This document shows positions 4,259 through 39,667 of a stretch of DNA of 64,000 nucleotides, piece after piece. The position numbers and the translations under genes are program-made. Origin of the DNA: a virus; the IMG/VR virus record IMGVR_UViG_3300045303_000152, positions 1-64,000 of that record; one strand, written 5' to 3'. The number at the start of each line of letters is the position of its first letter. Within the stretch, counting starts at the first letter, position 1. The notes under the pieces were generated by a model. That model saw nothing but the letters and a program-made list of their open reading frames with translations, did no database searches and was not told the DNA's origin.

Positions 4259-4511
4259 GCAAGCCGTGCAGGAAATTTGTGGTCGTCTGTTTGTAGAGCT
4301 TGGGTATAGTATGGCAGTGATTAGCCAATGCACTGCTTGTACTGAAGCATCAACCAGAAGACAGGTTAGGGAATATGTCAACGCTCACGGCGATCCGCAA
4401 GCTCACGCCCAGCCAGCACGACGACTTGAACAGGTTGCAGAAGCTGCACGCAAAGCAGGAACGGCTACTATCACAGCACTTCCTGATGGCGATGGGCAAG
4501 CTAACGAATAA
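4113..4511 (+). CDS. DnaA C-terminal-domain-like HTH protein
   Basis: 132 residues. Residues ~20-85 (IIKETLAKYDVPIWMVYNN ... ASTRRQVREYV) follow the layout of the DNA-binding domain IV of DnaA: a helix, the S/N-x-x-R-P turn, a helix with A-x-Q, then a recognition helix region beginning at a T/S-rich turn. That fold binds DnaA boxes in hosts; here there is no ATPase part. It overlaps both neighbours by about 140 bases in different frames, and its last ~45 residues (P/A/Q-rich) lie inside the overlap with the next gene. Similarity judged by eye only. Confidence 0.5.
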   Translation: MDTAPVSYTIPPQAKRPRAKQIIKETLAKYDVPIWMVYNNPKIRPPLAKQAVQEICGRLFVELGYSMAVISQCTACTEASTRRQVREYVNAHGDPQAHAQPARRLEQVAEAARKAGTATITALPDGDGQANE

Positions 4512-5352
4512 AACCAGCATCGACCAAATCGCCTATCTACTACGAGCCGGCAACATCAACGGCGTTACTAATCTCGTCGACGACGCCATTGAGAAATTCA
4601 GCAACGTGCTTGGCGCCGTGCTGGCTCTGGCTGGTCACAACGAAGCGAGTGTTTGGGCTAAGAAGTTCCACAGGCTAGGCAAGTCGGCTGGCTTTTTGGA
4701 TTTCACTGATCGCCGTGTTGCCACCGCTATCGCCAGCAACAAGTTCAATTTCACCACCAATCTCATGCGGCAACAGCACAACTTGGTGCGGCTCGCGCTA
4801 ATCAACGAGCTGCGAGGCGATGCGACATATGAGCAGATCGCCACCCGGTTCACGCATATGGTCGGCTTGACAGATCAGCAGTACAAATCTGTTGGCGTGT
4901 ATCGGCGCGCGCTGCAAGCTCAGCGCATTCAAAACCAGACAGAAGTCGATCCCGTCGAAATCGTGAAGGTCGATGATAGCGTTGACGTGCTCTCTCCCTT
5001 CATGATCGACCGTATGGTCAATCAGTACGCACAAGTCCAACGCAAAGCCCGAGCCGATACCATCGCCGCGACCGATGGCTTGAAGCTGATAAACCAGGGT
5101 AGATACCTCGCCGTGAGCCAAGCAATGGACTCTACTGGCGCCAACGGTACCAAGACATGGCTGCACACGACTTCAGCCGAGCCTCGAGAAACTCACCTCG
5201 ATACGGTGGGCACAACTATAGACATTGACGAGCCATTTGATGTTGGCGGGGTATCAATGCTATACCCTGGAGACCAAAGCTTAGGCGCCGGGCCAGAGGA
5301 TGTAATAAACTGCAAGTGTGGAGTATCTTACGACTTGCAACCAGGAGACTAA
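4375..5352 (+). CDS. Minor head protein, Mu F / SPP1 gp7 type
   Basis: 325 residues. The C-terminal ~65 residues carry the signature of this head-morphogenesis family: KTWLHTTSAEPRETHLDTVG, then FDVGGVSMLYPGD and the closing INCKCGVSYDL cysteine pair. The N-terminal part is helical. Members sit near the portal and are packaged in small copy number. Unusually, this copy lies on the opposite strand and 30 kb from the portal gene at 35.4-37.0 kb. Start at 4375 has GGTTAGGGA upstream; an alternative ATG at 4486 has no ribosome site. Confidence 0.75.
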   Translation: MSTLTAIRKLTPSQHDDLNRLQKLHAKQERLLSQHFLMAMGKLTNKTSIDQIAYLLRAGNINGVTNLVDDAIEKFSNVLGAVLALAGHNEASVWAKKFHRLGKSAGFLDFTDRRVATAIASNKFNFTTNLMRQQHNLVRLALINELRGDATYEQIATRFTHMVGLTDQQYKSVGVYRRALQAQRIQNQTEVDPVEIVKVDDSVDVLSPFMIDRMVNQYAQVQRKARADTIAATDGLKLINQGRYLAVSQAMDSTGANGTKTWLHTTSAEPRETHLDTVGTTIDIDEPFDVGGVSMLYPGDQSLGAGPEDVINCKCGVSYDLQPGD

Positions 5353-9286: not shown

Positions 9287-10114
9287 ATGCGGGTCAGCGT
9301 CAACATTCTCAAGCACAACGGCAATGCGCTGCACACGTGCCGCGCTTTTGCTCGGGGCATCGAGCTATCCGGTGACGAGGCCGTGCTGCGTACAGAGCGC
9401 GACCATCGCATGGATGACTTCGACGCCGCCGTGCTTTGGGGTTATGTAACACCCTGCCAGAATATCGTCAAAGCCTGCCGCGATAAGCGGATACCTTTCG
9501 TGTTCATGGACCTTGGCTACTTTCGCCGCACTGAGAGCGGCTACTTCAAGGTGACGGTCAATGAGCGGCACCCGACCACTTACCTCATGGATACTAAGCT
9601 ACCGTTCGATAGGTTCGAGCGGCTAAAGCTTAACATCCGCCCCTGGCAACGTAACGGCGAGCACATTCTACTAGCAGGTATGTCAGGTAAGGCAGCATGG
9701 TCGTGGAAGCTTGAAGCCGAAAGCTACGAGCGCGAAGCTGTCAGGATATTAAAGAAGTATACCAAACGTTGCATCATCTACCGCCCAAAGCCGAGCTGGC
9801 CCGATGCTCGCCCTATCAAACACGCGAACATGATTAGAGGTACTGCATTAGAGCAGGCCCTCGAGAACGCGCACTGTGTCGTCGCGCATCATTCGAACGC
9901 TGCGTGCGAGGCATTGCTGGCGGGCGTGCCTGTATTCTGCAAGTACGGTGCGGCTTCGCTGTTCAATAGCGGTGAGCTGAGCCAAGTGGAAACCCCGCTC
10001 TACCCTGACGGCCGCGAGCAATGGGCTGCTAACCTCGCCTATAGTCAATGGAACCTTCACGAGATGGCCAGTGGCGAATGCTGGCGGCACCTCAAATCGG
10101 TGGGCTTGATATGA
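9287..10114 (+). CDS. GT-B-like glycosyltransferase paralogue A
   Basis: 275 residues; the shortest of three tandem homologues. Shared blocks: MDLGYFRR, IYRPKPSW, the donor-site-like AHHSNAACEALLAGVPVFC, and a C-terminal WAANLAYSQWNLHEMASGE. The HxSxxxxEALxxGVPV pattern is typical of the C-terminal domain of GT-B enzymes and capsule export/synthesis proteins, where it contacts the nucleotide sugar. The acceptor is unknown. Its stop overlaps the next start (ATGA), so the set is cotranslated. Confidence 0.65.
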   Translation: MRVSVNILKHNGNALHTCRAFARGIELSGDEAVLRTERDHRMDDFDAAVLWGYVTPCQNIVKACRDKRIPFVFMDLGYFRRTESGYFKVTVNERHPTTYLMDTKLPFDRFERLKLNIRPWQRNGEHILLAGMSGKAAWSWKLEAESYEREAVRILKKYTKRCIIYRPKPSWPDARPIKHANMIRGTALEQALENAHCVVAHHSNAACEALLAGVPVFCKYGAASLFNSGELSQVETPLYPDGREQWAANLAYSQWNLHEMASGECWRHLKSVGLI

Positions 10115-11010
10115 AACTCAACATCGTACTCTACCTGAGTTCGAAGAAGCGTGAGCAGGACTTTCACCGTGCCATGCTGACGGGCTTTAGCAAGCTTGGT
10201 GATCGGGTTAGCTACATGCCAAAGCAGACCTTCGACCTGAGCGACATTCCAGCCAATACCAACGTGCTCGTCATCGTCGGCGTGAAGAGCAAGCGTGTGT
10301 TTCAAGCGTGCAAAGACAAAGGCATTACCGTACTGATGGTTGACAAAGGCTACTTCAGGAATAGGGAGTACTACCGCTTCTCCCTGGGTGGCTATCAACC
10401 GCCTTATCTGGAGGAAATGAAATGTACCCCCGAGCGCATGCGTAGGCTTGGTGTGCGATTGCGGCCTCGTCAAGTGGAAGGTCGCACAATAATCTTTGCC
10501 GGCAGCAGCCACAAGTACTGTAACTTCCATGAGCTGGGAGATGTTAACCTCTATGCAAAACATGCGTGTTTGGCTCTCAACACTATTATGGGCGGTGCGA
10601 AAACTCTTATCTACCGTCCGAAACCTAGCTGGTGGGCGAACGATGCCAAAAGCGAAAAGCGCATCGCGCCCGATACCGACAACCTGCCAGCCAACACACG
10701 ATTTTCTGGTCCAAATGAATTGCTCTCCCAGCTACTCCCTGACTGCCATTGCTTGGTTACGCATGGATCAACCGCAGCCCTAGATGCTTTGGCTGCCGGC
10801 GTGCCGGTACTGCTACTGAGCGACAAAGGCGTCAGTCCAGCTTGGCCGCTGAGCGAGCTTGATATGCGTAAAGTGCTCAATCCTTTCTGGCCTGACGACC
10901 AGTTTCGCCAACAGATATTCGCCAACCTTGCGCACTGTCAGTTCAACTTAGCAGAGATGGCTGACGGTACAGCTTGGGCAAACCTCAAACCCTGGTACAA
11001 GAAGGTCTGA
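10111..11010 (+). CDS. GT-B-like glycosyltransferase paralogue B
   Basis: 299 residues from ATG 10111, overlapping the preceding stop. Aligns with its neighbours over VDKGYFRNREYYRFSLGGY, IFAGSSHKYC, LIYRPKPSWW, THGSTAALDALAAGVPVLLL, LNPFWPDD and FANLAHCQFNLAEMADGTAW. An N-terminal Rossmann-like part is followed by the GT-B donor-domain signature. Closer to paralogue C than to A in the middle region. Confidence 0.65.
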   Translation: MKLNIVLYLSSKKREQDFHRAMLTGFSKLGDRVSYMPKQTFDLSDIPANTNVLVIVGVKSKRVFQACKDKGITVLMVDKGYFRNREYYRFSLGGYQPPYLEEMKCTPERMRRLGVRLRPRQVEGRTIIFAGSSHKYCNFHELGDVNLYAKHACLALNTIMGGAKTLIYRPKPSWWANDAKSEKRIAPDTDNLPANTRFSGPNELLSQLLPDCHCLVTHGSTAALDALAAGVPVLLLSDKGVSPAWPLSELDMRKVLNPFWPDDQFRQQIFANLAHCQFNLAEMADGTAWANLKPWYKKV

Positions 11011-11015
11011 CACCA

Positions 11016-11924
11016 ATGCGAATTATCATCTATACCTTACCCAAGGTCAAGCAGCGTGAGATGACCGAACGTCTCATGAAAGGCTTTCTGGCCAATGGTG
11101 ACTACGTTTCAATCTACCCAGCGGCGCAGGCGTTTCATAGCAGCACCGACCGCTACGAGCTTCGCGATGCTGACCTAGCCGTGATGATCGGCGGGCAGTC
11201 CTTCAGCATTTACGGACAATGCCGCTCGCGCGTGCCGACGTTGTTTGTGGATAAAGCCTACGTCGGCCGGCGAGACTACTATCGCTTGGTGCTCAACGGC
11301 TATCTGCCTTACTACCTTGACGAGCTGGCGCCCAACTACGATAGAATGGAACTTTGTCAGATACCCTTCAAGCCGCGCGTTGCTTACGGCAAGTTTATCA
11401 TCTATGCCGGTTCATCGAACGCCTATTGCCAGCACCACGGCTTGGGCGGCGCTTTGGAATACGACCGCCGGGTATGCGCCCAGATTGTCCGCCAGCTTCA
11501 GGCACTAACGGTGGCTGATATACCCAAGACGATAATGTACCGCATGAAAGCCTCGCTGGTGCCACGCGATCACCTGAAGCAGTATTCCATGCCTGACACG
11601 TTGCCTCCAGGGGTGCAGTACTGTCCGCCCGACGTAAAATTAACTACGCTGCTTCCTGATGCTCATTGCGTGGTAACGTTCGGCAGCAATGCAGCTATAG
11701 AAGCCATCGCTAACGGCGTGCCGGCAGTTGTGCTATCGTCCGCAGGCATCAACCCGGCATGGTCGATAGCAGAACACAATGACGTGCTGAACCCTTACTG
11801 GGCGCCGGACGATCGACGTAGGAGTTTGCTGGGCCGCCTCGCGCAAGTACAGTTCAGCGCGCATGATATAGAGAGCGGATTAGCCTGGGCAATCGTGAGG
11901 CCCTGGTTAGGAAGAGGGAGATAA
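11016..11924 (+). CDS. GT-B-like glycosyltransferase paralogue C
   Basis: 302 residues from ATG 11016, five bases after the preceding stop. Same block order as paralogue B: VDKAYVGRRDYYRLVLNGY, IYAGSSNAYC, TFGSNAAIEAIANGVPAVVL, LNPYWAPDD, LAQVQFSAHDIESGLAW. The IYRPKPSW block is replaced by MYRMKASL, so a donor-site difference is possible. Followed three bases later by an FkbM methyltransferase, which suggests a glycan-decorating pathway. Confidence 0.65.
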   Translation: MRIIIYTLPKVKQREMTERLMKGFLANGDYVSIYPAAQAFHSSTDRYELRDADLAVMIGGQSFSIYGQCRSRVPTLFVDKAYVGRRDYYRLVLNGYLPYYLDELAPNYDRMELCQIPFKPRVAYGKFIIYAGSSNAYCQHHGLGGALEYDRRVCAQIVRQLQALTVADIPKTIMYRMKASLVPRDHLKQYSMPDTLPPGVQYCPPDVKLTTLLPDAHCVVTFGSNAAIEAIANGVPAVVLSSAGINPAWSIAEHNDVLNPYWAPDDRRRSLLGRLAQVQFSAHDIESGLAWAIVRPWLGRGR

Positions 11925-11927
11925 GCA

Positions 11928-12578
11928 ATGGCAGCCTACCAAACTAAGAGCGGCTTTTGGGTGCATGACAATCAGAAGCTGAAGTGGGATAAGCACATTA
12001 ATAGGAAAACGGGCGAGCCTCAGTACCAGATGCCTCAGCTTGAACAGGCGATAGCAGAGTGTAAGCGTGCGGGGCGCATGCATACCGTTATAGATGGTGG
12101 CGCTCACGTCGGCTTGTGGACCTATCACTTCGCGCAGCGCTTCCAGCGAGTACTGGCCTTCGAGCCCACGGTGGATAGCTTTGAGTGCCTACGATTGAAT
12201 AATAAGGATAAAGATAATGTGAAAGTTTACAACCTTGCCTTGAGCAATTACATAGGCACGCTCACGATGGCGCCCAGAAAAATGGGTTGGGAGCATGTAG
12301 CGGAAGGTACCCCCAATGCTATCGACTTGCCCTGTACCACGATTGATAGTTTGGCGTTGAACCAACTCGACTTGCTAAAGTTGGATATCGAGGGTCACGA
12401 GTTCGAGGCATTGAAGGGCGCGGTGCAAACAATCACGCGCTGCAAGCCGGTCATCGTCGTTGAGGATAAGCGGGATATCAGGCCCGGTGAGCTGCCAATC
12501 CACTACCTGATTGATTTGGGTATGGAGCTTGCCCATCGCCTCAAGCATGACCACATTTTTGTGTGGCCTGAAATCTAG
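11928..12578 (+). CDS. FkbM-family SAM-dependent methyltransferase
   Basis: 216 residues. Motif I of class I methyltransferases is VIDGGAHVGLWTYHFA (residues ~55-70), followed by the acidic VLAFEPT ribose-binding strand and the FkbM signature LDLLKLDIEGHEFEALKGA. FkbM enzymes mostly O-methylate sugars or natural products. Directly behind three glycosyltransferase-like genes, so a methylated glycan is a reasonable guess. A paralogue lies on the minus strand at 33831-34478. Confidence 0.8.
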   Translation: MAAYQTKSGFWVHDNQKLKWDKHINRKTGEPQYQMPQLEQAIAECKRAGRMHTVIDGGAHVGLWTYHFAQRFQRVLAFEPTVDSFECLRLNNKDKDNVKVYNLALSNYIGTLTMAPRKMGWEHVAEGTPNAIDLPCTTIDSLALNQLDLLKLDIEGHEFEALKGAVQTITRCKPVIVVEDKRDIRPGELPIHYLIDLGMELAHRLKHDHIFVWPEI

Positions 12579-29282: not shown

Positions 29283-30353
29283 TCAGGGCGCCAAATTGTC
29301 CACGGCCTTGCTGAAGAACACGCCGAGGTCCGAAGAGACCACCCGCATGTCCCAAGCCATACGGCCCTGGAAGAAGTCGCTATGCGCACGCGCCTCGCGG
29401 CCACGTTCGATCACGCCGCCAAGCTGGTTGGTGAAACCCGGTACGAGGCCGGTCCAGCTAAAGGTGGCGATAGCAGTCGGGCTATCCAGCGCGGGGTTCG
29501 GGTCGATGTAGCACAGCAGCATCGACTCCTCGTCCGCAATGAACTGGAAGCTGTCGGTAGCGCCTTCCGCAGCCGAGTTGTAAACGCTGCGAGCGACCAC
29601 GAGGTTGTCCACCTCGAACAAGCTGGCAAGAATGCCATCGTCCGCAACACCGGTCTGCGTGTACTTGATCCGGTCGGTGATGTCCGGGTGCGAACGGAGC
29701 ACCCGCTTCACTGCCGAGCCGAGCACCAGCGTATTCGGGCGGTAGCCCGTGTTCCGCATGATGCGTTCCTTGGCTGCGTCGATCACGTCGATTGGCGTCG
29801 AGGCGGGATCGTTGAAGTTCAGGAACTGGTTGGTACCCGGCGTCGAGGTACCCCCGAGGTAATCGACGGCCCAGATACCGGTAGCAAAGAACCGCTGACA
29901 CCACATGCGATCCTGCTTAATCATGTTCTTCTGCGTCAGCAGGGTCGTCGCATTCTCGTCGAGCCGGATCGGGTCGTCGGCATTCGAGCGCTGGCGGTCA
30001 TCGACCGTGTGCTCCAAGCCGTACTCGATCGCGGTGTAGGTGCCGCTGCTCACCTTGTAGCCAGCCTGTTGCGGGCGTCCGCCGAGGGGACGGGGCTGAA
30101 CCTCATCCCTCCAGAAGTAGCCACGGTCGTAGGTGACGTACAAGTCGGTCTGCTTCAGCACGGGGATCTGCGACGATGCCCGCTGGGCAACGAAGTTCGC
30201 TTCGTCCTGCACGAAAGCTACCGAGAAGTTTGTGAGGTAGCGATCCACGTGGAGCGCGCCCTCGATGTTGGTGGCGGTTGGGCTGTTCTTGCTCATAGCC
30301 CCGAAGATATCGGCGCCGCCAGCCTTCAACGTCATTACATCACTCTGTTTCAT
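29283..30353 (-). CDS. Major capsid protein (HK97 fold)
   Basis: 356 residues. ALHVDRYLTNFSVAFVQDEA at the start, the GYRPNTLVLGSAVKRVLRSH P-domain helix, DRIKYTQTG and LASLFEVDNLVVARSVYN, and the final GREARAHSDFFQGR are standard for capsid proteins of this group. CAGGAGAACTGAAA before the ATG is a strong ribosome site. Neighbours are the decoration-like and scaffold genes upstream. Confidence 0.88.
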   Translation of the reverse strand: MKQSDVMTLKAGGADIFGAMSKNSPTATNIEGALHVDRYLTNFSVAFVQDEANFVAQRASSQIPVLKQTDLYVTYDRGYFWRDEVQPRPLGGRPQQAGYKVSSGTYTAIEYGLEHTVDDRQRSNADDPIRLDENATTLLTQKNMIKQDRMWCQRFFATGIWAVDYLGGTSTPGTNQFLNFNDPASTPIDVIDAAKERIMRNTGYRPNTLVLGSAVKRVLRSHPDITDRIKYTQTGVADDGILASLFEVDNLVVARSVYNSAAEGATDSFQFIADEESMLLCYIDPNPALDSPTAIATFSWTGLVPGFTNQLGGVIERGREARAHSDFFQGRMAWDMRVVSSDLGVFFSKAVDNLAP

Positions 30354-30815: not shown

Positions 30816-32645
30816 TTAGTTTGCCTCCCCCTGCCAAGCATCGAAGCCCTCTGGGTCTTCCATGCGTGCCTTGCGCATGGCTTCCTGACGCTTCATGCCG
30901 CCCTGCTGGAGATCGGTAACGCGCTTCTCGAAGCTGCTACCACCCGAGCTCTTGAGCGTTTCGACCGTCGTGGCGCGCGTGCCAATACGCTGGAAGGCGA
31001 GCGAGGCGGTCTTGTTGGCCGCTGCGAACGCATTCTTGGCGTAGGTACGCTGAGCCTCTGGCATGCTTTCGAGCGACTTGAGGAAAGCAACCTTGTCCTC
31101 AGTCTTGCCCGGCAGGTGCGCCAGCTCGGTCTCGGCACGCTTGGTCAGCTCGACCTCTTCGCGCTTCTCACGCTCGACCTTGAAGTCCTTCTCGAGCTGA
31201 AGGGTGCGCGCCTGACTGGCCTTGAGCACGGCAAACATGCTGTCGCCCACGACCGACTTGAGGATCGTCTGGCCCTCGATAGCGAGGATCTCATCGCTGG
31301 CGATGGCCTTCTTCACCTCTGTAAGCCGGGCCGACTTGTCGAGTGCCAGGAACTTCTCCTTCGAGGCATCGTCCTTGCAAATGTTGTCGTAGTGCTCGCG
31401 CTCGTCGCCGGTCAGCTCGGCAACCTTCCTGGCAACAGCCAGCTCCTGCTCGGCCTTTTCACGGGCCTTCTTCTCCGTCGCCGCCGCTTTGGTCATCTCG
31501 TCGACCTTGGCAGACAGTGCATCCAGCTGCTTCTTCACTTCTGCGCTGGCGCTGGCTCCAGCATTTTTGTTCACAACCATGTTGTCCTCGTCCTTCTCTG
31601 CTTGAACCAGGGCCTTACTAACCGCCCCTTCTACTTCTGGCATGGCGGTTTTAAGGCCGGCCAGAAACCCTTCGACGCTAGTACGCAGCATATTCTGCCT
31701 AGTAGCGTCATCTACGTCTTGATCTGCGATAATCGAGCGAAGCGAAGTATCCAACGCGCTAATCAAAGGCCACGCGGCCGACATCATATCCTGATATTTC
31801 TTGTCGGCCTCGTACGTGTCGAGCACTTCGGTAAACGTCATTGCGCCATCGGATGGATCGATATAACGCTTGAGAATTTTACCAACTAGCCCTGGCGGTG
31901 TCTTGTCCTTCGCCGGTGCCTTACCCTTGCCCTTTGGAGGCGCCTTCTTGGGCTTCGCCGCAGCATCAACAGCGGCGTGAGCAGCAGCAGTATTGTCAGG
32001 ATGAGGATTGGCAACAGCATTGTCGATGGCGTCGTGAGCAGCACTAGCAGCATCGGCGCCATCAGGGCTATCTGTACCATCACCATTGTCGGCCCCCTCT
32101 TCTGCATTAGGGTCAGTGTTATCGGCCCCGCCCGCGTCGGCATTTAACTCGTCTGCCATCTGAGCCGCTGGGTCTGTCCCATCAGGTGCCGGGTTCGAGC
32201 CGTCATCCTGCAGCGGGTTCGGCATGTCGCCAGGGTGGCTATCCGGATACGCGATATGCCATGCATCGCGCAAGCGATTGAGCACGTCGTCGATGGCGTC
32301 GGTCGGAATGTGGTACTTCTGGGGCTTCACAGCGCCGCCGTTAGTGCCATCAACCGTCGAGGCTGCGTTGACGTTATCGCCAAATGCATCGATGGCCTTA
32401 TCCAGTCGAGCCTTCGAAATGTCGCCACCGGGCTCTTCGGTCAGCAACAACTTCCAGGTCTTGGTGTCCTTTGGGTCACCAACGTAGGCGAAATCCTCAG
32501 CCGGGTAGTCAAAGCGACCAACACTCTTCGTGATCGACTTGCGTTTCATGATCGCCATGACGGCTCCTTGCTGAGCTGGGACGTCAACAGTTGAGATTTC
32601 GCTGAGGCGAAACCTACGCATGATGTTCTTTTTAGGCGCAGCCAC
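30816..32645 (-). CDS. Scaffold-like protein with protease-target N-terminus
   Basis: 609 residues from a GTG start. The first ~40 (RRFRLSEISTVDVPAQQGA) match the EISxVDxPAxxGA segment found at the end of XkdF-type protease polyproteins. Residues ~150-230 are acidic and low-complexity (D/A/N/P), then basic (PKKAPPKGKGKAPAKDK); from ~330 to ~560 a long K/E/A coiled coil dominates. This is the composition of an internal capsid scaffold. It directly follows the XkdF-containing gene, as if a larger protease-scaffold polyprotein had split. Confidence 0.65.
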   Translation of the reverse strand: MAAPKKNIMRRFRLSEISTVDVPAQQGAVMAIMKRKSITKSVGRFDYPAEDFAYVGDPKDTKTWKLLLTEEPGGDISKARLDKAIDAFGDNVNAASTVDGTNGGAVKPQKYHIPTDAIDDVLNRLRDAWHIAYPDSHPGDMPNPLQDDGSNPAPDGTDPAAQMADELNADAGGADNTDPNAEEGADNGDGTDSPDGADAASAAHDAIDNAVANPHPDNTAAAHAAVDAAAKPKKAPPKGKGKAPAKDKTPPGLVGKILKRYIDPSDGAMTFTEVLDTYEADKKYQDMMSAAWPLISALDTSLRSIIADQDVDDATRQNMLRTSVEGFLAGLKTAMPEVEGAVSKALVQAEKDEDNMVVNKNAGASASAEVKKQLDALSAKVDEMTKAAATEKKAREKAEQELAVARKVAELTGDEREHYDNICKDDASKEKFLALDKSARLTEVKKAIASDEILAIEGQTILKSVVGDSMFAVLKASQARTLQLEKDFKVEREKREEVELTKRAETELAHLPGKTEDKVAFLKSLESMPEAQRTYAKNAFAAANKTASLAFQRIGTRATTVETLKSSGGSSFEKRVTDLQQGGMKRQEAMRKARMEDPEGFDAWQGEAN

Positions 32646-32655
32646 CTAACTCTCC

Positions 32656-33705
32656 CTACTCGACTTCTTCATCAACTAGGCGATGACCGCCAATGCTGAA
32701 GCCGGTAAGGGTACCGTCTTCAAAGTCCTTCAACACCTTCTTGTCGGTCGGCTTCACGCCAACCATCAAGCCTGTCGTGCCAGACTTCAACCCCATCGCC
32801 TTAGCGATCTCGGTTGTCATCGGCCATGCAAACACAACCTCGCCGGCCTGCTTGCCCTTGTGCATGACCTTCATGACACGGTGCTCTTCCATAAACTTGG
32901 TAGCAGCTTCGAGCATCGCGTCTTCTGGTATGTGGTCGCCCTGCAAATCGTAGTATTCTTCACCGCCGACCTTGCTGACGATAGCCCAACCAAACACCAA
33001 ACCTAGGTTCTTCAGGAATTTGAATACGCCTAGGTTTGGCTCGGCGGCGCCCTTCTCTGTAATGCTGTCGGCCCAACTACCATCGTCAACCTCTTCGAAA
33101 ATTTCAGGACCCAGCTCGATTGGCCCCGTGTAGGGTTCAACCTTACTAAGATCCATGCTGCCAACATCGTAGCTAATGCTAACATGAGGACTATAGTCAG
33201 GATAATCCCAACTACAACCATGAACTTTACAAAGCTCATTGAAGCGCCGATCAAGACTGGGACTTGCGAACTTGAGTACTACTGCCCCCTTGTCCCCCAA
33301 AGGCTCGACTACTCGGCCACGCTGGCTCTTGATGACAACGCTGTCATCATCCTGCACAGGCCAGTCCACAGCATCGGAACTATGTGCGACCGTAACATGC
33401 ATGTCGTGCGGCTGTAGGGTTTTCTCGAACCCCTGCGACTTGGCCCACTTGATGATGTCAGCTGCATTCTCGACATTGCGTCGGCCGTACAGGGTAGCAT
33501 TCTTGACCTTGTGTATCCAGCGCGTGCCACCACTTGGCTTCTTGTACTGCTGGCTGACCGCCGACCAAGCCGAACGAAAGGCAATCTCCTCCGACTTTCC
33601 ACCTTGTAGCTGGGCGTTGACCACCCTGCGAAACAGGGTTTGCGCCGCCACAGGTAGCGGGTTCTTCACACTTGTCGGAAGATCTTGGTTTCTGGCATAC
33701 GGCAC
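32656..33705 (-). CDS. ChaB / Acb1-like 2H phosphodiesterase / XkdF protease fusion
   Basis: 349 residues from GTG 33705; a TTG eight codons earlier is possible, but ChaB domains typically begin MPY..xxLP as here (MPYARNQDLPTSV). Residues 2-57: ChaB-like. Residues ~68-180: 2H phosphoesterase with both catalytic motifs, H103-V-T105 (DMHVTVAHS) and H174-V-S176 (SPHVSISYD), and the WDYPDY segment of T4 Acb1-type anti-CBASS enzymes, which hydrolyse cyclic nucleotide alarm signals. Residues ~230-345: XkdF-like prohead protease domain (FGWAIVSKVGGEEYYDLQGD, LTGFSIGG). It lies upstream of scaffold and capsid genes, so the protein may be made late and partly enclosed in the head. Confidence 0.75.
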   Translation of the reverse strand: MPYARNQDLPTSVKNPLPVAAQTLFRRVVNAQLQGGKSEEIAFRSAWSAVSQQYKKPSGGTRWIHKVKNATLYGRRNVENAADIIKWAKSQGFEKTLQPHDMHVTVAHSSDAVDWPVQDDDSVVIKSQRGRVVEPLGDKGAVVLKFASPSLDRRFNELCKVHGCSWDYPDYSPHVSISYDVGSMDLSKVEPYTGPIELGPEIFEEVDDGSWADSITEKGAAEPNLGVFKFLKNLGLVFGWAIVSKVGGEEYYDLQGDHIPEDAMLEAATKFMEEHRVMKVMHKGKQAGEVVFAWPMTTEIAKAMGLKSGTTGLMVGVKPTDKKVLKDFEDGTLTGFSIGGHRLVDEEVE

Positions 33706-33757
33706 TGTGGTTACATCCCTCGGCCCCAAGCGTTCTATTTAGAAAATGCCTCGTGCG

Positions 33758-33830: not shown

Positions 33831-34478
33831 CTACCATCTAAAGAAATAATCGTGACCGTTTTGCACGCCAGTACACGTCATGCCAAGGTCCGTGAGAAAG
33901 CCAATCGCCCGCTTCATCTTGTCGAGCTTCTCTTCAACGATCACAAAAGGCTTGCAGCGCATGATTGTTTCGCGCGCACCAAGCAGGCCCGCGTACTCAT
34001 GCCCTTCCAAATCCAGCTTCAGTAAATCGAGCTGGTCGAGCTTGAGGCTATCGACCGCCATGCATGGAAAGTGCTTAGGCTCGCCCCGCGACTTGGTGTG
34101 TGGGTGAGCTGCCCATCCAACTGCCCGTGGCGTCATGGCAAGCTGACCGGCCTTATCACTAAGCGCCAACCTGTACAGATCGAGGGCTCGATCAGACCCG
34201 CGCTCAGGGCCGTACACCTCAGTATTCTTTTCCAGGCAGGCAAAAATGTGCGGTATTGGTTCGAAGGCAATTACCCGCTTGAAGTAGCGGGCCAGATGAA
34301 TAGTCCAAATGCCGACGCATGCCCCGCCATCTATTGCAACGTTCAGCCGACTACCGCAAGCCTGCACGACTTGCTGGATATCATCGTATTGGTAGCTGGG
34401 CAGCCCATTGATAAATGGGCCTTCGAGCCAACGAGTCTTAATCTCATCAGGACTCCACACACCGTTTACGTGCTTCAT
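33831..34478 (-). CDS. FkbM-family methyltransferase, second copy
   Basis: 215 residues. Motif I AIDGGACVGIWTIHLARYFK, the VIAFEPIP strand and LDLLKLDLEGHEYAGLLGAR are collinear with the 11928-12578 gene, as are the VGWAAH and ETIMRCKPFVIVEE segments. The two copies are clearly paralogues but well diverged. Its place within the head operon, between connector and protease genes, is odd for a glycan-modifying enzyme and suggests that the substrate could be a virion component. Confidence 0.8.
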   Translation of the reverse strand: MKHVNGVWSPDEIKTRWLEGPFINGLPSYQYDDIQQVVQACGSRLNVAIDGGACVGIWTIHLARYFKRVIAFEPIPHIFACLEKNTEVYGPERGSDRALDLYRLALSDKAGQLAMTPRAVGWAAHPHTKSRGEPKHFPCMAVDSLKLDQLDLLKLDLEGHEYAGLLGARETIMRCKPFVIVEEKLDKMKRAIGFLTDLGMTCTGVQNGHDYFFRW

Positions 34479-34481
34479 TTA

Positions 34482-34856
34482 TCATTCTTCCGGTGCAACG
34501 TACTTAGGAACATCGGGTAACGGTACGTTCTGACCCGAAAGTGCGTGTGTGCTATCCTCACAAAACTTAATAATTCCATTGTGGATGAAATAGTGACACA
34601 CTATCGACTTGCCGCACATCTGGTAATCTATCTTTATTGATGGACCAAAGGTCGGTTGTAGCATGTTGCCATCAAATGTCCACTTAGCGCCGTTAGTAAA
34701 CGGATGTTCTACTGCGATTGCATGCATCTCCTCACAGCCAGGGCACCAATGCATCCAGCCTGCATCGGCATGCTCGGCACCCTCAGTATTAACACAGCCA
34801 TCCTTACCTACCTTCGTACAGTAGGTATAGCGCCGGAGTTTTATAGCTTTTGCCAT
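34482..34856 (-). CDS. DUF6527-like small protein
   Basis: 124 residues. WMHWCPGCEEMHAIAV gives a CxxC pair, followed by WTFDGNMLQPTFGPSIKI and CHYFIHNGIIKFCEDSTHAL, the conserved order of a widespread phage family placed in structural operons. Probable zinc site; function unknown. Confidence 0.7.
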   Translation of the reverse strand: MAKAIKLRRYTYCTKVGKDGCVNTEGAEHADAGWMHWCPGCEEMHAIAVEHPFTNGAKWTFDGNMLQPTFGPSIKIDYQMCGKSIVCHYFIHNGIIKFCEDSTHALSGQNVPLPDVPKYVAPEE

Positions 34857-35438
34857 TTAGATACCGTCGTTGTAGTCGAACTCGTCGTTGGTGACGCTCT
34901 GGGTCTTCCTATCCGTCGTCACGCCGGCACCAAAGGCTTGCCCGATAACTGCTGCTGTAGCGCCGCACATATACTTGCCGACCAGTTCCTGCACAGGTAT
35001 CGGGAAGCGAGCATTCTGATCGTAGTAGTTCTCGAGCCCCGGCCGAAAGTAGGTCAAGCTCACCGAACCCGCCTTGATTATCTGCAACCCTTGGCCGTTA
35101 GGCGTTGTCGTGCTCTGCACGTTGCTGCCAGCCATCAACAGATTGGCAAGCTCGATGCAGCCATCGACAATATCGGTAGGCACGACATTGTCCTCTACAC
35201 CGTCTATACCTGTATCAGTGCGCGGCCACTGCAATGCTTGGCCGCTAGTCATAGTCTTCTCACCTACCCAGCACTGCCTATCCATCGTGCGGGTAGCCGT
35301 AATCAATGCTTGTGCCTTCTGAGTTTCAGTCGCCGCTGCCCATGCCGTGGCGCTGAGCATGCCAGCAAGATACATATCAGCATCGCCAACACTTGCGTAA
35401 ACGTCGTACAGAGTGGAGTCAATCGCAACTACAGTCAT
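34857..35438 (-). CDS. Head-tail connector/adaptor (gp6-like, DnaT-like annotation)
   Basis: 193 residues. DADMYLAGMLSATAWAAATE followed by QKAQALITATRTMDRQCWVG and the LQWPRTD motif are characteristic of the connector ring proteins often labelled DnaT-like in phages. Lies directly downstream of the portal gene, fitting an adaptor that docks under the portal. Confidence 0.75.
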   Translation of the reverse strand: MTVVAIDSTLYDVYASVGDADMYLAGMLSATAWAAATETQKAQALITATRTMDRQCWVGEKTMTSGQALQWPRTDTGIDGVEDNVVPTDIVDGCIELANLLMAGSNVQSTTTPNGQGLQIIKAGSVSLTYFRPGLENYYDQNARFPIPVQELVGKYMCGATAAVIGQAFGAGVTTDRKTQSVTNDEFDYNDGI

Positions 35439-35450
35439 GCGTACCCCCGA

Positions 35451-36992
35451 TTATTTGCTAGCCGCTGTGTTACGCGGCAGCCGTTGCATTTCTGGACTTT
35501 GCTTTGGATTACCCTGCGCATCTACCTCACCTGTACCGGGCGTGTGTGGATCAACGCTGTTAGCTGGTGGCAACACCTTGGGCAATGGTGCCGGCGGCTG
35601 GTTTGGGTCGTTAGGATCAGCCGTCAACACCTCTTGCTCGGGTTGAAACTTGGTACGGCTGACGCCGAGCATGTCGCGCACGTCATTGACGACGGGATCA
35701 TCCGGCGCGAGCGTTGCACCACTCTGGCTCAAGCGGGCAAGCGTCGTGGCAACCTCGACAACGTCCTTCGGGGCTATGTTCTCAGCTACGAGGTGAGGCC
35801 TAAGCCTATCATCAAAGCCGTTAAGCGCCCACAATGGAGTAATGATATCATGTTGCATAGCAGCTACGATGGTACGGAGCACGCTGTTGGCAATCAGATA
35901 GACATTTTGCGACTTATCTGAAGCCACGGCCTTTGCACCGCCAGCCGTACCGCCCCCGAGCATGAGATGCTCGATGCCCATGATGCGCGCCATTTCACGT
36001 TGGATGCGATCAATCGCAGCGCTGATCTCGCTCAGGCCCAAGGCTGGGCCGCTCAGCAGGTCCAAACTCCACTGCTTTTCGCTAGAAACTACCGGGCCGC
36101 CAGCCGTGATGGTCGTAAAAGTCTGGCTATCCAACAGCAGGCCGGTATCCGACTGCTTGACCTGGGTTTGGACCATATCGACCATACCCTGGACCAACCG
36201 TGCGCCTTCCTCAGCCGTCATGTTGCCGGCCTTAACCGCCTGATTGATGGCCGACAACGGCGCCCGACCTACGGGAATACCACGCAAATCCCGCTCATAG
36301 GCCCGCACCTCAAGCTCAAGAAAGCGTCGCAGCCGCGAGTATGGCTCGACCAAATGCCGAAAGACCCCCAAACCCTCGGGGCTATCGGTGAGGTTATCTT
36401 CCTTCATATAAACCAGCTTGCTTCTAGGCAAGCCTAGCAATGCATTGTTCTGTGGATTGCGCTGAAAGCAGCCCAGCACGTGGCCAACCTCATCCACCGC
36501 CCATTGCTCGATGGTATGCTGTGGCCGCACCTCAATGTCAGAAATGCCGATCAGCCCGTCGATTGACCGATGCTCGGCAGTCCACTCTTGAACGCTAAAG
36601 CCATGAAAGCGAAACATGCCGGCCTGTCGCACGATGTTAGGCCAGGGAGTATGCGTATTGGCCAGCACATCGTTCACGAAGTCAGCCATATCCTTCGCTT
36701 CACTACTAGCGTCGGCAGGCTGGGCCGTCCATTTGGGGTTTGAAATCAGGTTGAGGAAATAGTGAACGCCGGCCGCTACCACGCTGGCGTTTACGGCTAG
36801 CTCGCTCGAGAGTATCCAGCGCTGCCGGCCATGCCACTGTGACGAGGCATCCTTATTCTGAATGTAGCCGCCCCAAGTGGCAGTACCAGTAGAACCCTGA
36901 GTTTGGTAAGGCGTTGGTAGAGGAAGTTGCGGTGCGCCCCAGAGGCTTCGACCCCACTTCCTGAGTTGATCTATGCTTAGTGGATTTGCCAT
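35451..36992 (-). CDS. Portal protein (DUF935/Mu gp29-like)
   Basis: 513 residues from ATG 36992, with GAGGGG about nine bases upstream (a TTG six codons earlier is less likely). SSELAVNASVVAAGVHYFLN, FRFHGFSVQEWTAE, a KLVYMKEDN strand and the RFLELEVRAYERDLRGIPVG helix match the portal clade that accompanies Mu F-type minor head proteins. Forms the dodecameric DNA gate. C-terminal ~60 residues are P/N-rich. Confidence 0.8.
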   Translation of the reverse strand: MANPLSIDQLRKWGRSLWGAPQLPLPTPYQTQGSTGTATWGGYIQNKDASSQWHGRQRWILSSELAVNASVVAAGVHYFLNLISNPKWTAQPADASSEAKDMADFVNDVLANTHTPWPNIVRQAGMFRFHGFSVQEWTAEHRSIDGLIGISDIEVRPQHTIEQWAVDEVGHVLGCFQRNPQNNALLGLPRSKLVYMKEDNLTDSPEGLGVFRHLVEPYSRLRRFLELEVRAYERDLRGIPVGRAPLSAINQAVKAGNMTAEEGARLVQGMVDMVQTQVKQSDTGLLLDSQTFTTITAGGPVVSSEKQWSLDLLSGPALGLSEISAAIDRIQREMARIMGIEHLMLGGGTAGGAKAVASDKSQNVYLIANSVLRTIVAAMQHDIITPLWALNGFDDRLRPHLVAENIAPKDVVEVATTLARLSQSGATLAPDDPVVNDVRDMLGVSRTKFQPEQEVLTADPNDPNQPPAPLPKVLPPANSVDPHTPGTGEVDAQGNPKQSPEMQRLPRNTAASK

Positions 36993-37071
36993 CCGTCCGT
37001 GACCCCTCAAGAGCGCCCAAAGTTTATTTTGTGCGCCAGACTAGCATAAAGCTGTCTCGCGAACAACCTGC

Positions 37072-38913
37072 CTAAGCCCTGATAATCATTGGAGCAACAA
37101 ACGTGGAATTAGAAGCCATCATATCGGTTGGCACTGGCCAGCTCGCTATGACCACGGCTTCTGCAAGGTTAGGTGACTGTCGATCATGCTCGGCCTTTAC
37201 AATCATGAGCTTCATCTTGGCCGATTTAGCCGTCGTCGCCTGCACTTGGCACAGCTCGTCACGCAGCTTGTGAAGCAAACCAATCTCAATGCTCTTAGTC
37301 TCAATGCAAATCATCTCCTTAACGTCAAACTTCTCACCGTTGACCACCGCGCGCCACGTATTATAGAATAGCCTGCCTACGTGGGTCCACGCCTGCGCCT
37401 TCATGTTCGCGTAGTAGTCCTTATTCATCATGGACTTTTCGTCGTTAGGCACAATCCGCCCAAAGGGATTAAGTGGGGTAGCACCTGCATTCCATGGCAC
37501 AAGAGTGAGCGAAGCTGGAAACAGATTGTCGTCGGCTAGCCTGAAACACTCGGCCTTGACGCCGGCGCCGACGCCTAGACAATCGTAGTTCAACGTGCAA
37601 GGCAAAAACGACTGGCACAAGCCAACGGCCATTCTTGCAGTTATGGCAGTGTCGCGAACGGCCCACGTGTTCAACGCCTTTACGGTCTGAGCCATCTTGA
37701 TCGCGCAGGCGTTGGCAGCTTCGCCACCATCGGCAACGTCTAGCCCGCCGTAAGTGTCGCCATCATCCATCGTGATGCCTAATTTCTCATTGGCATTGCA
37801 GGCGGCCTCAAACCACTCCTGCTTGATGATGGCGCCTTGGGTCACGGCAGCGTAATCGCGACCGATCTCGCGCGCGTACACGTGGCCGAGCCCTTTATCC
37901 TCAAACATTTTCTTGCGCTTGGCCGCCCACTCGGCGTTCTTTTCAGGGTGATCGCGCCAGTCGAGCAAAAACACATTGGCGCGCTCGGTCTGTATCTTTT
38001 TGCCGGGCGCCCACTCTATCCCAGCCTGCCGAGTTCGATGGAAAACAGTACCAGGAGCACTAACGCTGCTAATGTCAATGCGCACACGAGTATTTTCACT
38101 GAGCGAGCCTTCCACTGCATCGGGGCGCTCCAAGTAGGCTGCCTCGTCAACGAAGTACACCCTGGTTCTACCACCTCGCCCGATGTTGTCGCCAATCTCA
38201 CCGACAATCGACGAGCCGTTGTCGGGGTTGACGACCCGCTTGAACATCAGGTTCTCGTCTTTGAACTTCTTGGGCTTGAATATCGGCGGCATGCCGCGAA
38301 TGACCATACGCACTTTCTCAAAAATGCTGCTGGCATCGCCAAGCCGGTCGAGCTTCTCGCTGTTTGCCGAGCCCCACCCGATGGCCGAGCCCGGTATGAA
38401 CTTCCACATCCAAACCGAGTAGCCCACGCCGCACCACGTCGCGCCCATATCACGCGACTTTTCTACAAGCCCGGTGCCTTCCTCGACCACGCAGGCATGA
38501 AAAAACTGTATCAGCTCCTCTTGCCGCTTGAACAGCACGAAGGGAAATCGCGTCGGCAGGCCCCGGCCGGCGTTGCGGGGCTCATAAATATCTACCCAAT
38601 GGCACACAAACCTGACGGGATCATTGATGTACAAGCTTTCGATCATACTTGGATCGTCGTTAAACTTGCTCATCATCCGATGGCGCCAACGCTGCACCAT
38701 CACGTAATCGCGTGTGGGCCATTCCTCATGCGTCAAGGCATGAGGCTCAGGCGGATCGACCTGATTTGGTATTTTGCCGTCACGAAAGTTCATCTCATCT
38801 CTAATTTCGGCCAGCACGGCCTCCAGCAACACAGGATCAGCCTTGCCCAAAAAGTCGTCTTCGACTTGGGCGGTGTTATCTACTGTATTGCCCTTTAGCT
38901 TCTTACGTGCCAT
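37072..38913 (-). CDS. terL: Terminase large subunit
   Basis: 613 residues. ATPase: adenine/Walker A-like GLVEKSRDMGAT (~149-159) and Walker B VYFVDEAAYLE (~252-262). Nuclease: YGGLDVADGGEA with the first metal Asp near 392, a second Asp in LNYDCLGVGAG, and the final DRQSPNLAEAVVIA helix. ATG 38913 has GAGGAAAG upstream and overlaps the small subunit stop by 11 bases. Packages DNA into the prohead. Confidence 0.92.
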   Translation of the reverse strand: MARKKLKGNTVDNTAQVEDDFLGKADPVLLEAVLAEIRDEMNFRDGKIPNQVDPPEPHALTHEEWPTRDYVMVQRWRHRMMSKFNDDPSMIESLYINDPVRFVCHWVDIYEPRNAGRGLPTRFPFVLFKRQEELIQFFHACVVEEGTGLVEKSRDMGATWCGVGYSVWMWKFIPGSAIGWGSANSEKLDRLGDASSIFEKVRMVIRGMPPIFKPKKFKDENLMFKRVVNPDNGSSIVGEIGDNIGRGGRTRVYFVDEAAYLERPDAVEGSLSENTRVRIDISSVSAPGTVFHRTRQAGIEWAPGKKIQTERANVFLLDWRDHPEKNAEWAAKRKKMFEDKGLGHVYAREIGRDYAAVTQGAIIKQEWFEAACNANEKLGITMDDGDTYGGLDVADGGEAANACAIKMAQTVKALNTWAVRDTAITARMAVGLCQSFLPCTLNYDCLGVGAGVKAECFRLADDNLFPASLTLVPWNAGATPLNPFGRIVPNDEKSMMNKDYYANMKAQAWTHVGRLFYNTWRAVVNGEKFDVKEMICIETKSIEIGLLHKLRDELCQVQATTAKSAKMKLMIVKAEHDRQSPNLAEAVVIASWPVPTDMMASNSTFVAPMIIRA

Positions 38914-39667
38914 CACTTTCCTCGGGCTGCTTTACCAACTCAATCTCTTCAGCCTCGACCGCGTCCAACCTTCTCAAGCTTTGGTTAGGCGTTAAGGCTG
39001 CCTGCAATACCTGCATCAGCTTGCGGAGTTGATCGGTACTCATACCGCGAATATCGCTGATGTTGATTTGGCCGGGAACATTAGGGTTCTTAGCGGAGTC
39101 AGGATCACGCCCCCATAGCTCGGGATTGCGGTTAATCATCCAGAACTTAGCTGCGTTGAAGTTGCGTGGTACTTGCTCCTTATACCTGATGATCTTATGC
39201 CCCTCACCCTCCTGATTAAATATCTTGACTGCGGGTATCTCATAACCGACAGCCATCTCGTACATGCTGCGCATGACGTTGGCATCGACAAGGCTGGCCT
39301 GCCGACTTATGACGAGAGCTTGAGCAAACTCGGGGTAGCAGGTCTTCCACATGCGCAATACGGGCAACGTGGTTTTGAAGTACGTCACCAATTCCTTTTC
39401 CGTCGCGCCGTTGAGTACCTGAGCAGCAGCTTGCTGAGGATAATCCTCCTGATACTCGTGAAACAGCCGATTAAAACGACCGTTGCCGAAGTTCTGACGA
39501 ATGGCGCCTTCAGGTTTCGGCTTGGCAATGCGCTTGCCTACCTGCTCGATAGGAATTTCCTCAGGCTCGACTAATCGCTCGAAGCTGTCGTGAGCTCCGT
39601 TAAGTTTGGCCGGTAACAGACGCTTGCGCGGTAGCGGCTTTGCCTTGGGCTTTTTCTCTCGCGGCAT
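38903..39667 (-). CDS. terS: Terminase small subunit-like protein
   Basis: 254 residues from MPREKK; GAGGAG eight bases upstream sets the start. A basic N-terminus is followed by an HTH-like stretch with GATEKELVTYFKTTLPVLRM and WKTCYPEFAQAL, the usual TerS recognition pattern, then NAAKFWMINRNPELWGRD as in phage TerS/DUF families. Overlaps TerL at one end and the RepA-like gene at the other. Confidence 0.75.
   Translation of the reverse strand: MPREKKPKAKPLPRKRLLPAKLNGAHDSFERLVEPEEIPIEQVGKRIAKPKPEGAIRQNFGNGRFNRLFHEYQEDYPQQAAAQVLNGATEKELVTYFKTTLPVLRMWKTCYPEFAQALVISRQASLVDANVMRSMYEMAVGYEIPAVKIFNQEGEGHKIIRYKEQVPRNFNAAKFWMINRNPELWGRDPDSAKNPNVPGQINISDIRGMSTDQLRKLMQVLQAALTPNQSLRRLDAVEAEEIELVKQPEESDGT

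Follow-up and report, generated by a model that had tools for sequence, protein, structure and literature searches.

The internal proteins and Alt of phage T4 are effectors carried in the phage head and set a precedent for the delivery of proteins to the next cell. PMC5512222 draws on the same precedent, and the Dar proteins of phage P1 are co-ejected, with one of them cut by the prohead protease (PMC12810830). Iyer and colleagues (2017, 2022; PMC5512222, PMC9503650) propose that a 2H domain joined to a MuF or portal protein travels in the particle and is injected as a countermeasure against nucleotide signalling. For Nudix domains joined to MuF, to the portal or to the capsid-processing serine peptidase they likewise propose packaging. 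Acb1 is an enzyme that destroys CBASS signals, and its T4 version has the catalytic tetrad H44, T46, H113 and T115 (Hobbs et al., PMC9117128), the base-stacking residues Y12, W74, F107 and W147, and an adenine contact at E141 (PMC9117128). PMC12409349, citing Richmond-Buccola 2024, also reports that the prohead protease of phage Bas13 interacts with a CBASS sensor and triggers growth arrest. The general idea of head-fused, injected 2H enzymes that destroy signals is thus not new (2017, 2022; PMC5512222, PMC9503650). We found no description in the open-licence literature of a 2H or Acb1 domain fused to a maturation protease, or occurring with ChaB, and as far as literature searches show the maturation-protease fusion of Acb1 with ChaB is undescribed.

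Such a fusion is encoded in a stretch of 64,000 nucleotides (the window) from a tailed phage of metagenomic origin, whose virus record runs to 109,752 bases. An earlier note on this DNA had placed the gene in a capsid operon, and it does lie in an unbroken minus-strand run of head and tail genes in the order terminase, Mu-type portal, adaptor, DUF6527 protein, FkbM methyltransferase, fusion, 609-aa protein, small head protein and major capsid protein, followed by tail genes. The main features of this run are as follows.

37072..38916, minus strand: terminase large subunit (PHROG 2 and 5989)
35451..37010, minus strand: Mu-type portal protein, here without an Acb1 domain (Pfam PF06074, PHROG 113)
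34857..35438, minus strand: head-tail adaptor Ad1 (PHROG 477)
32656..33705, minus strand: ChaB-Acb1-XkdF fusion gene, 349 aa, GTG start with GAGGG upstream
30816..32645, minus strand: conserved 609-aa protein directly downstream of the fusion, which it adjoins in relatives too (PHROG 19463, unknown function)
29283..30353, minus strand: major capsid protein (PHROG 1005, E 4e-79)

The 609-aa protein is possibly scaffold-like. A TTG codon at 33729 is a less likely start for the fusion gene, because its relatives begin at the same M/V-P-[YW]. The window shares its gene order with L001, the closest relative; L102-L110 keep this order too, starting at the fusion and as far as their contigs extend. 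The DUF6527 gene (34482-34856), found between the adaptor and FkbM genes in the window, is absent from L001, meaning that the head operon has either gained or lost it. Two FkbM-type methyltransferases are encoded in the window, at 11928-12578 and at 33831-34478, the latter a head-operon gene a short way upstream of the fusion. Elsewhere, the adjacent genes 10048-11010 and 10974-11924 both match the DUF6716 putative glycosyltransferase and are probably a tandem duplication, and a MuF-like protein is encoded on the plus strand at 4375-5352, far from the head operon.

The earlier note had read the protein as ChaB, Acb1 and XkdF protease domains in that order, and this reading is confirmed by three significant Pfam domains, all above their curated cut-offs. 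The three-domain fusion is far beyond chance.

33511..33681, minus strand: ChaB domain, residues 9-65 (Pfam PF06150, E 3.5e-11; PDB 1sg7)
33082..33495, minus strand: Acb1 2H phosphoesterase domain, residues 71-208 (Pfam PF23474, E 1.9e-38; Foldseek 7t26/7t27)
33391..33399, minus strand: first catalytic motif HVT, residues 103-105, aligned with T4 H44/T46
33193..33210, minus strand: WDYPDY segment, residues 166-171, in which Y168 aligns with Acb1 F107
33178..33186, minus strand: second catalytic motif HVS, residues 174-176, aligned with T4 H113/T115
33025..33066, minus strand: short Acb1/protease linker, residues about 214-227, with the lowest between-domain model confidence and a length that varies in relatives
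32683..33000, minus strand: XkdF-type (Peptidase_S78_2) head maturation protease domain, residues 236-341 (Pfam PF14550, E 2.4e-8; PHROG 1530 and head maturation protease families)
32860..32862, minus strand: presumed protease catalytic His282, invariant in the alignment, its role taken from the S78 family
32695..32697, minus strand: presumed protease catalytic Ser337 (FSIGG), likewise invariant, its role taken from the S78 family

The ChaB match scores 44 bits against a cut-off of 27, and misses the PRK09582 equivalog cut-off, so that the domain does not classify as an ortholog of E. coli ChaB. The protease match scores 34.5 bits against a cut-off of 24 and, with its His and Ser conserved, bears out the proposed fusion to a head maturation protease. 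PHROG 1530, which matches the protease domain over residues 226-347, is labelled "DNA methyltransferase", and this label has passed to records such as RDJL Phi 2 gp60.

The Acb1 match is the strongest of the three, at 131.9 bits against a cut-off of 27 and covering profile positions 2-139 of 144; Pfam 2_5_RNA_ligase2 reaches only E 0.032 on the same protein. A PDB sequence search with the fusion protein returned the Pam3 portal C-terminus (E 9e-19), FBB1 Acb1 (7t26, E 8e-11) and ChaB (1sg7, E 0.0023). An AlphaFold2 model, built on a 54-sequence alignment taken only from the window and fetched loci, has a pLDDT of 88.8 with all three domains folded and a pTM of 0.61, which leaves the relative placing of the domains uncertain. 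The best PDB matches of this model in Foldseek are 7t26 (FBB1 Acb1, E 7.8e-8) and 7t27 (E 3.5e-7), with TM scores of 0.72-0.74 by target, followed by a Burkholderia phage phosphodiesterase and then LigT, with other 2H enzymes lower. The 2H fold of T4 Acb1 type put forward in the earlier note is recovered in the predicted structure, with FBB1 Acb1 as the best PDB match, and the HVT, HVS and WDYPDY segments lie in the translation at exactly the residues to which that note had assigned them. In alignment with T4 Acb1 the two motifs give a complete catalytic tetrad, the four residues being H103, T105, H174 and S176.

Residue conservation was counted over 121 aligned Acb1 domains, less two that lack the region. 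Among the remaining 119, H103 is His in all, T105 is Thr in all, H174 is His in 118 and S176 is Thr or Ser in all. The Ser of the window is shared by eight of these domains, and L001 has Thr. Since the tetrad is nearly invariant, catalysis appears to be under selection in the fused forms. Equivalents of the ligand contacts Y12, F107, E141 and W147 of T4 are present as Y73, Y168, E204 and W211. The equivalent of W74 is V132 by sequence alignment, and the residues common in this subgroup are not aromatic at that place; with its base pocket changed at this one position, the fused Acb1 may differ from that of T4 in substrate range.

Relatives were gathered in two scans of viral contigs and a domain survey, and as the scans were seeded with the window protein the following counts are not prevalences. 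The architectures found were portal PF06381-Acb1 (80), ChaB-Acb1-XkdF (13), Acb1-XkdF (10), portal PF06074-Acb1 (6), portal PF04860-Acb1-MuF (3), portal PF04860-Acb1 (2), Acb1-S78 protease (1) and other or partial forms (6); removal of near-copies left eight distinct ChaB-Acb1-XkdF and seven distinct Acb1-XkdF proteins. Acb1 is thus attached to the C-termini of portals of PF06381, PF06074 and PF04860 and to proteases of PF14550 and PF04586, with representatives confirmed by both Pfam and NCBIfam. Among annotated phages, portals account for most of the closer Acb1 matches, and the distant matches are T4-type 57B proteins that stand alone. A scan of genome contigs gave only one protease relative without Acb1, and among host genomes of the sampled class Acb1 exceeded its cut-off in only one of 385. 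As judged from these architectures, phages seem repeatedly to have added Acb1 to head proteins, probably so that each particle carries the enzyme into the next cell, and its presence on several families of portal and on two of protease suggests selection for the head location itself. The Acb1 tree groups the ChaB-bearing form together. Its point estimate suggests several events of Acb1-XkdF joining, but a single origin is compatible with the data by the AU test (p 0.53); we accordingly claim no count of joining events.

Several proteins met in the survey depart from these architectures. A 2,732-aa phage protein of polyvalent type (L126:5337-13532) has an Acb1 domain near residue 890, and a portal-Acb1 protein (L023:2905 onward) has an extra 238-aa tail with a JAB-like HHNHP motif seen by eye and no Pfam match. 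The annotated "prohead protease" gp129 of the cultured Roseobacter phage DSS3P8 (L180:6989-7441) is not a fusion but a misnamed stand-alone Acb1 of 150 aa, the name having probably spread from fusion proteins. XkdF proteases with other N-terminal additions, some annotated as ParB-like, occur in L134, L179 and the Vibrio phage records H58-H60; Pfam did not confirm ParB in L134. The variety of these additions makes the protease N-terminus look like a place where domains are added in general.

We take Acb1 to be the added part of the fusion because the annotated proteins closest to the protease, RDJL Phi 2 gp60 for one, stand alone. When the window is compared with L001, most of the synonymous change falls in Acb1, with a dS of 0.78 there against 0.25 in ChaB and 0.17 in the protease. 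The densest 90-codon run of synonymous change starts at residue 106 and was equalled in none of 5000 shuffles, although other patches of the alignment are divergent as well; this pattern is what would be expected of an exchangeable accessory domain. In two contigs, L115:8001-8879 and L117:8001-8879, the Acb1 catalytic core has been lost in frame; ChaB and the protease remain, and of Acb1 the first strand and the tail. These contigs are near-identical yet distinct, differing at several residues, and the deletion is therefore probably no assembly error. No other Acb1 was found in the 44-kb contig of L117. As ChaB and the protease were kept when the core was lost, the enzyme looks dispensable for head building in this one lineage.

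Combining these observations, we propose that ChaB and Acb1 ride at the N-terminus of the head maturation protease, as a passenger that is packaged, released and delivered to cleave CBASS signals, a reading to which we assign a probability of roughly 0.6. The protein would be made late with the head genes, and the protease domain would bring its passenger into the prohead, as expected from how such proteases work. There either the protease of the same fusion or a neighbouring copy could sever the passenger at the variable linker, after which the Acb1 part would be retained in the head and enter the next cell with the DNA. In the new cell Acb1 is predicted, from its fold and catalytic residues, to cleave CBASS-type cyclic oligonucleotide signals 3' of adenosine, as do T4 and FBB1 Acb1. 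As a guess, ChaB might tether the passenger, either to DNA or to the inside of the prohead. Packaging is indirectly supported, on sequence evidence, by the recurrence of Acb1 on portals and two maturation-protease families and by the in-frame loss of its core with the protease kept. Against packaging, self-degradation is common among maturation proteases, which then exit as peptides, and the passenger could be lost in the process.

No motif in the fusion stands out as a cleavage site. The I-T-E-K junction resembles known prohead sites, but the conserved W-x3-[IL]-x-E junction was rejected as a self-cleavage site since portal-fused Acb1 has it as well. The fusions of L104, L107, L109 and L161 contain a movable segment (GARH...QxIHDxxVxLGAxC, about 28 aa) at either the ChaB/Acb1 or the Acb1/XkdF junction; a regular expression for it matched only these protease fusions and their near-copies, and a linker or processing site is possible.

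The enzyme might instead act late, with protease-tethered Acb1 at the prohead destroying a CBASS alarm signal triggered by the head or protease, so that no delivery is needed. The reported triggering of CBASS by the Bas13 prohead protease (PMC12409349) fits this explanation, as does the position of the gene in the head operon, from which late expression is presumed. We nevertheless consider it unlikely: fused Acb1 was found far more often on portals than on proteases, so that what the fusions have in common is not proximity to the protease, and a free soluble Acb1 would do equally well in the same cell, as in T4. Late action in the producing cell and delivery to the next are not mutually exclusive timings. 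The fusion could even be a built-in antidote, in which a protease that CBASS can recognise carries the enzyme that destroys the signal, and processing would silence the alarm while heads are built and also supply the particle with freed Acb1 for the next infection; this we hold to be distinctly unlikely.

It is very unlikely, in our estimate, that the 2H domain is packaged and injected to act on another substrate, such as RNA or RNA ends, the cyclic oligoadenylates of type III CRISPR, or some other nucleotide signal. An RNase role is among the proposals for head-fused 2H domains in PMC5512222, T4 Acb1 itself cleaves cAAA (PMC9117128), which makes a CRISPR signal possible, LigT, Usb1 and 2'-5'A phosphodiesterases appear lower in the Foldseek list, and the W74 equivalent is not aromatic. 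Acb1 provides the closest structures, however, the Pfam separation from 2_5_RNA_ligase2 is sharp, and both E204, the Glu that contacts adenine, and W211, the Trp of the lid, are retained. That the Acb1 fold is structural in the head, or an inactive passenger, deserves very little credence: one ChaB-Acb1-XkdF protein (L110, 4288-5331) does lack the second catalytic His, with a natural change to Tyr (PYITIS), but the catalytic residues stay nearly invariant while the rest diverges and many protease relatives have no Acb1, and we reject a purely structural role on that conservation and the L115/L117 deletion.

If Acb1 is indeed carried in the particle, the phage would have its weapon against CBASS at hand as soon as infection begins, whereas T4 makes Acb1 as a separate protein during infection. 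The choice of a protease as partner is pointed, given that a prohead protease is a reported CBASS trigger (PMC12409349). The natural L115/L117 deletion offers a ready comparison, and the presence of portal-fused Acb1 in cultured phages (phiPSA1, RHEph04, Pam3) makes virion proteomics feasible now.

A comparison with known systems shows both shared and distinct elements. The fused domain resembles Acb1 of T4 (gp57B) and FBB1 (PF23474) in its fold, family score, HxT/Hx[TS] tetrad and equivalents of Y12, F107 (here Tyr), E141 and W147. Unlike these small stand-alone proteins, it is a domain of a head protease, its W74 equivalent is not aromatic and its activity is predicted. The XkdF-type protease of Xiamenvirus (RDJL Phi 2 gp60, PHROG 1530) is up to 61% identical to the protease domain and occupies the same place between portal/adaptor and capsid genes, but is a stand-alone protein of about 130 aa without ChaB or Acb1. 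Searches of the virus's own genome, which reproduced the domain coordinates of the fusion, found no second Acb1 anywhere in the 109,752-base record. The T4 internal proteins and Alt and the P1 Dar proteins are also head-carried effectors, some of them processed by the head protease; in contrast to the fusion they are separate from that protease and have other targets. The 2H-MuF and 2H-portal polyvalent proteins of Iyer follow the same proposed logic of head packaging, injection and destruction of nucleotide immune signals; in the available parts of those texts the 2H partners are MuF and portal, a maturation protease is named as partner only for Nudix, and ChaB is absent from the 2017 text. 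Portals with a C-terminal Acb1, as in cyanophage Pam3 (8hds) and Rhizobium phage RHEph04, place the same enzyme family on a head protein without ChaB or a protease, and are the closest sequence relatives of the fused Acb1 outside the protease fusions. With a conflict enzyme on a head protein, among the genes from portal to terminase, the fusion shares the context of head-packaged effectors.
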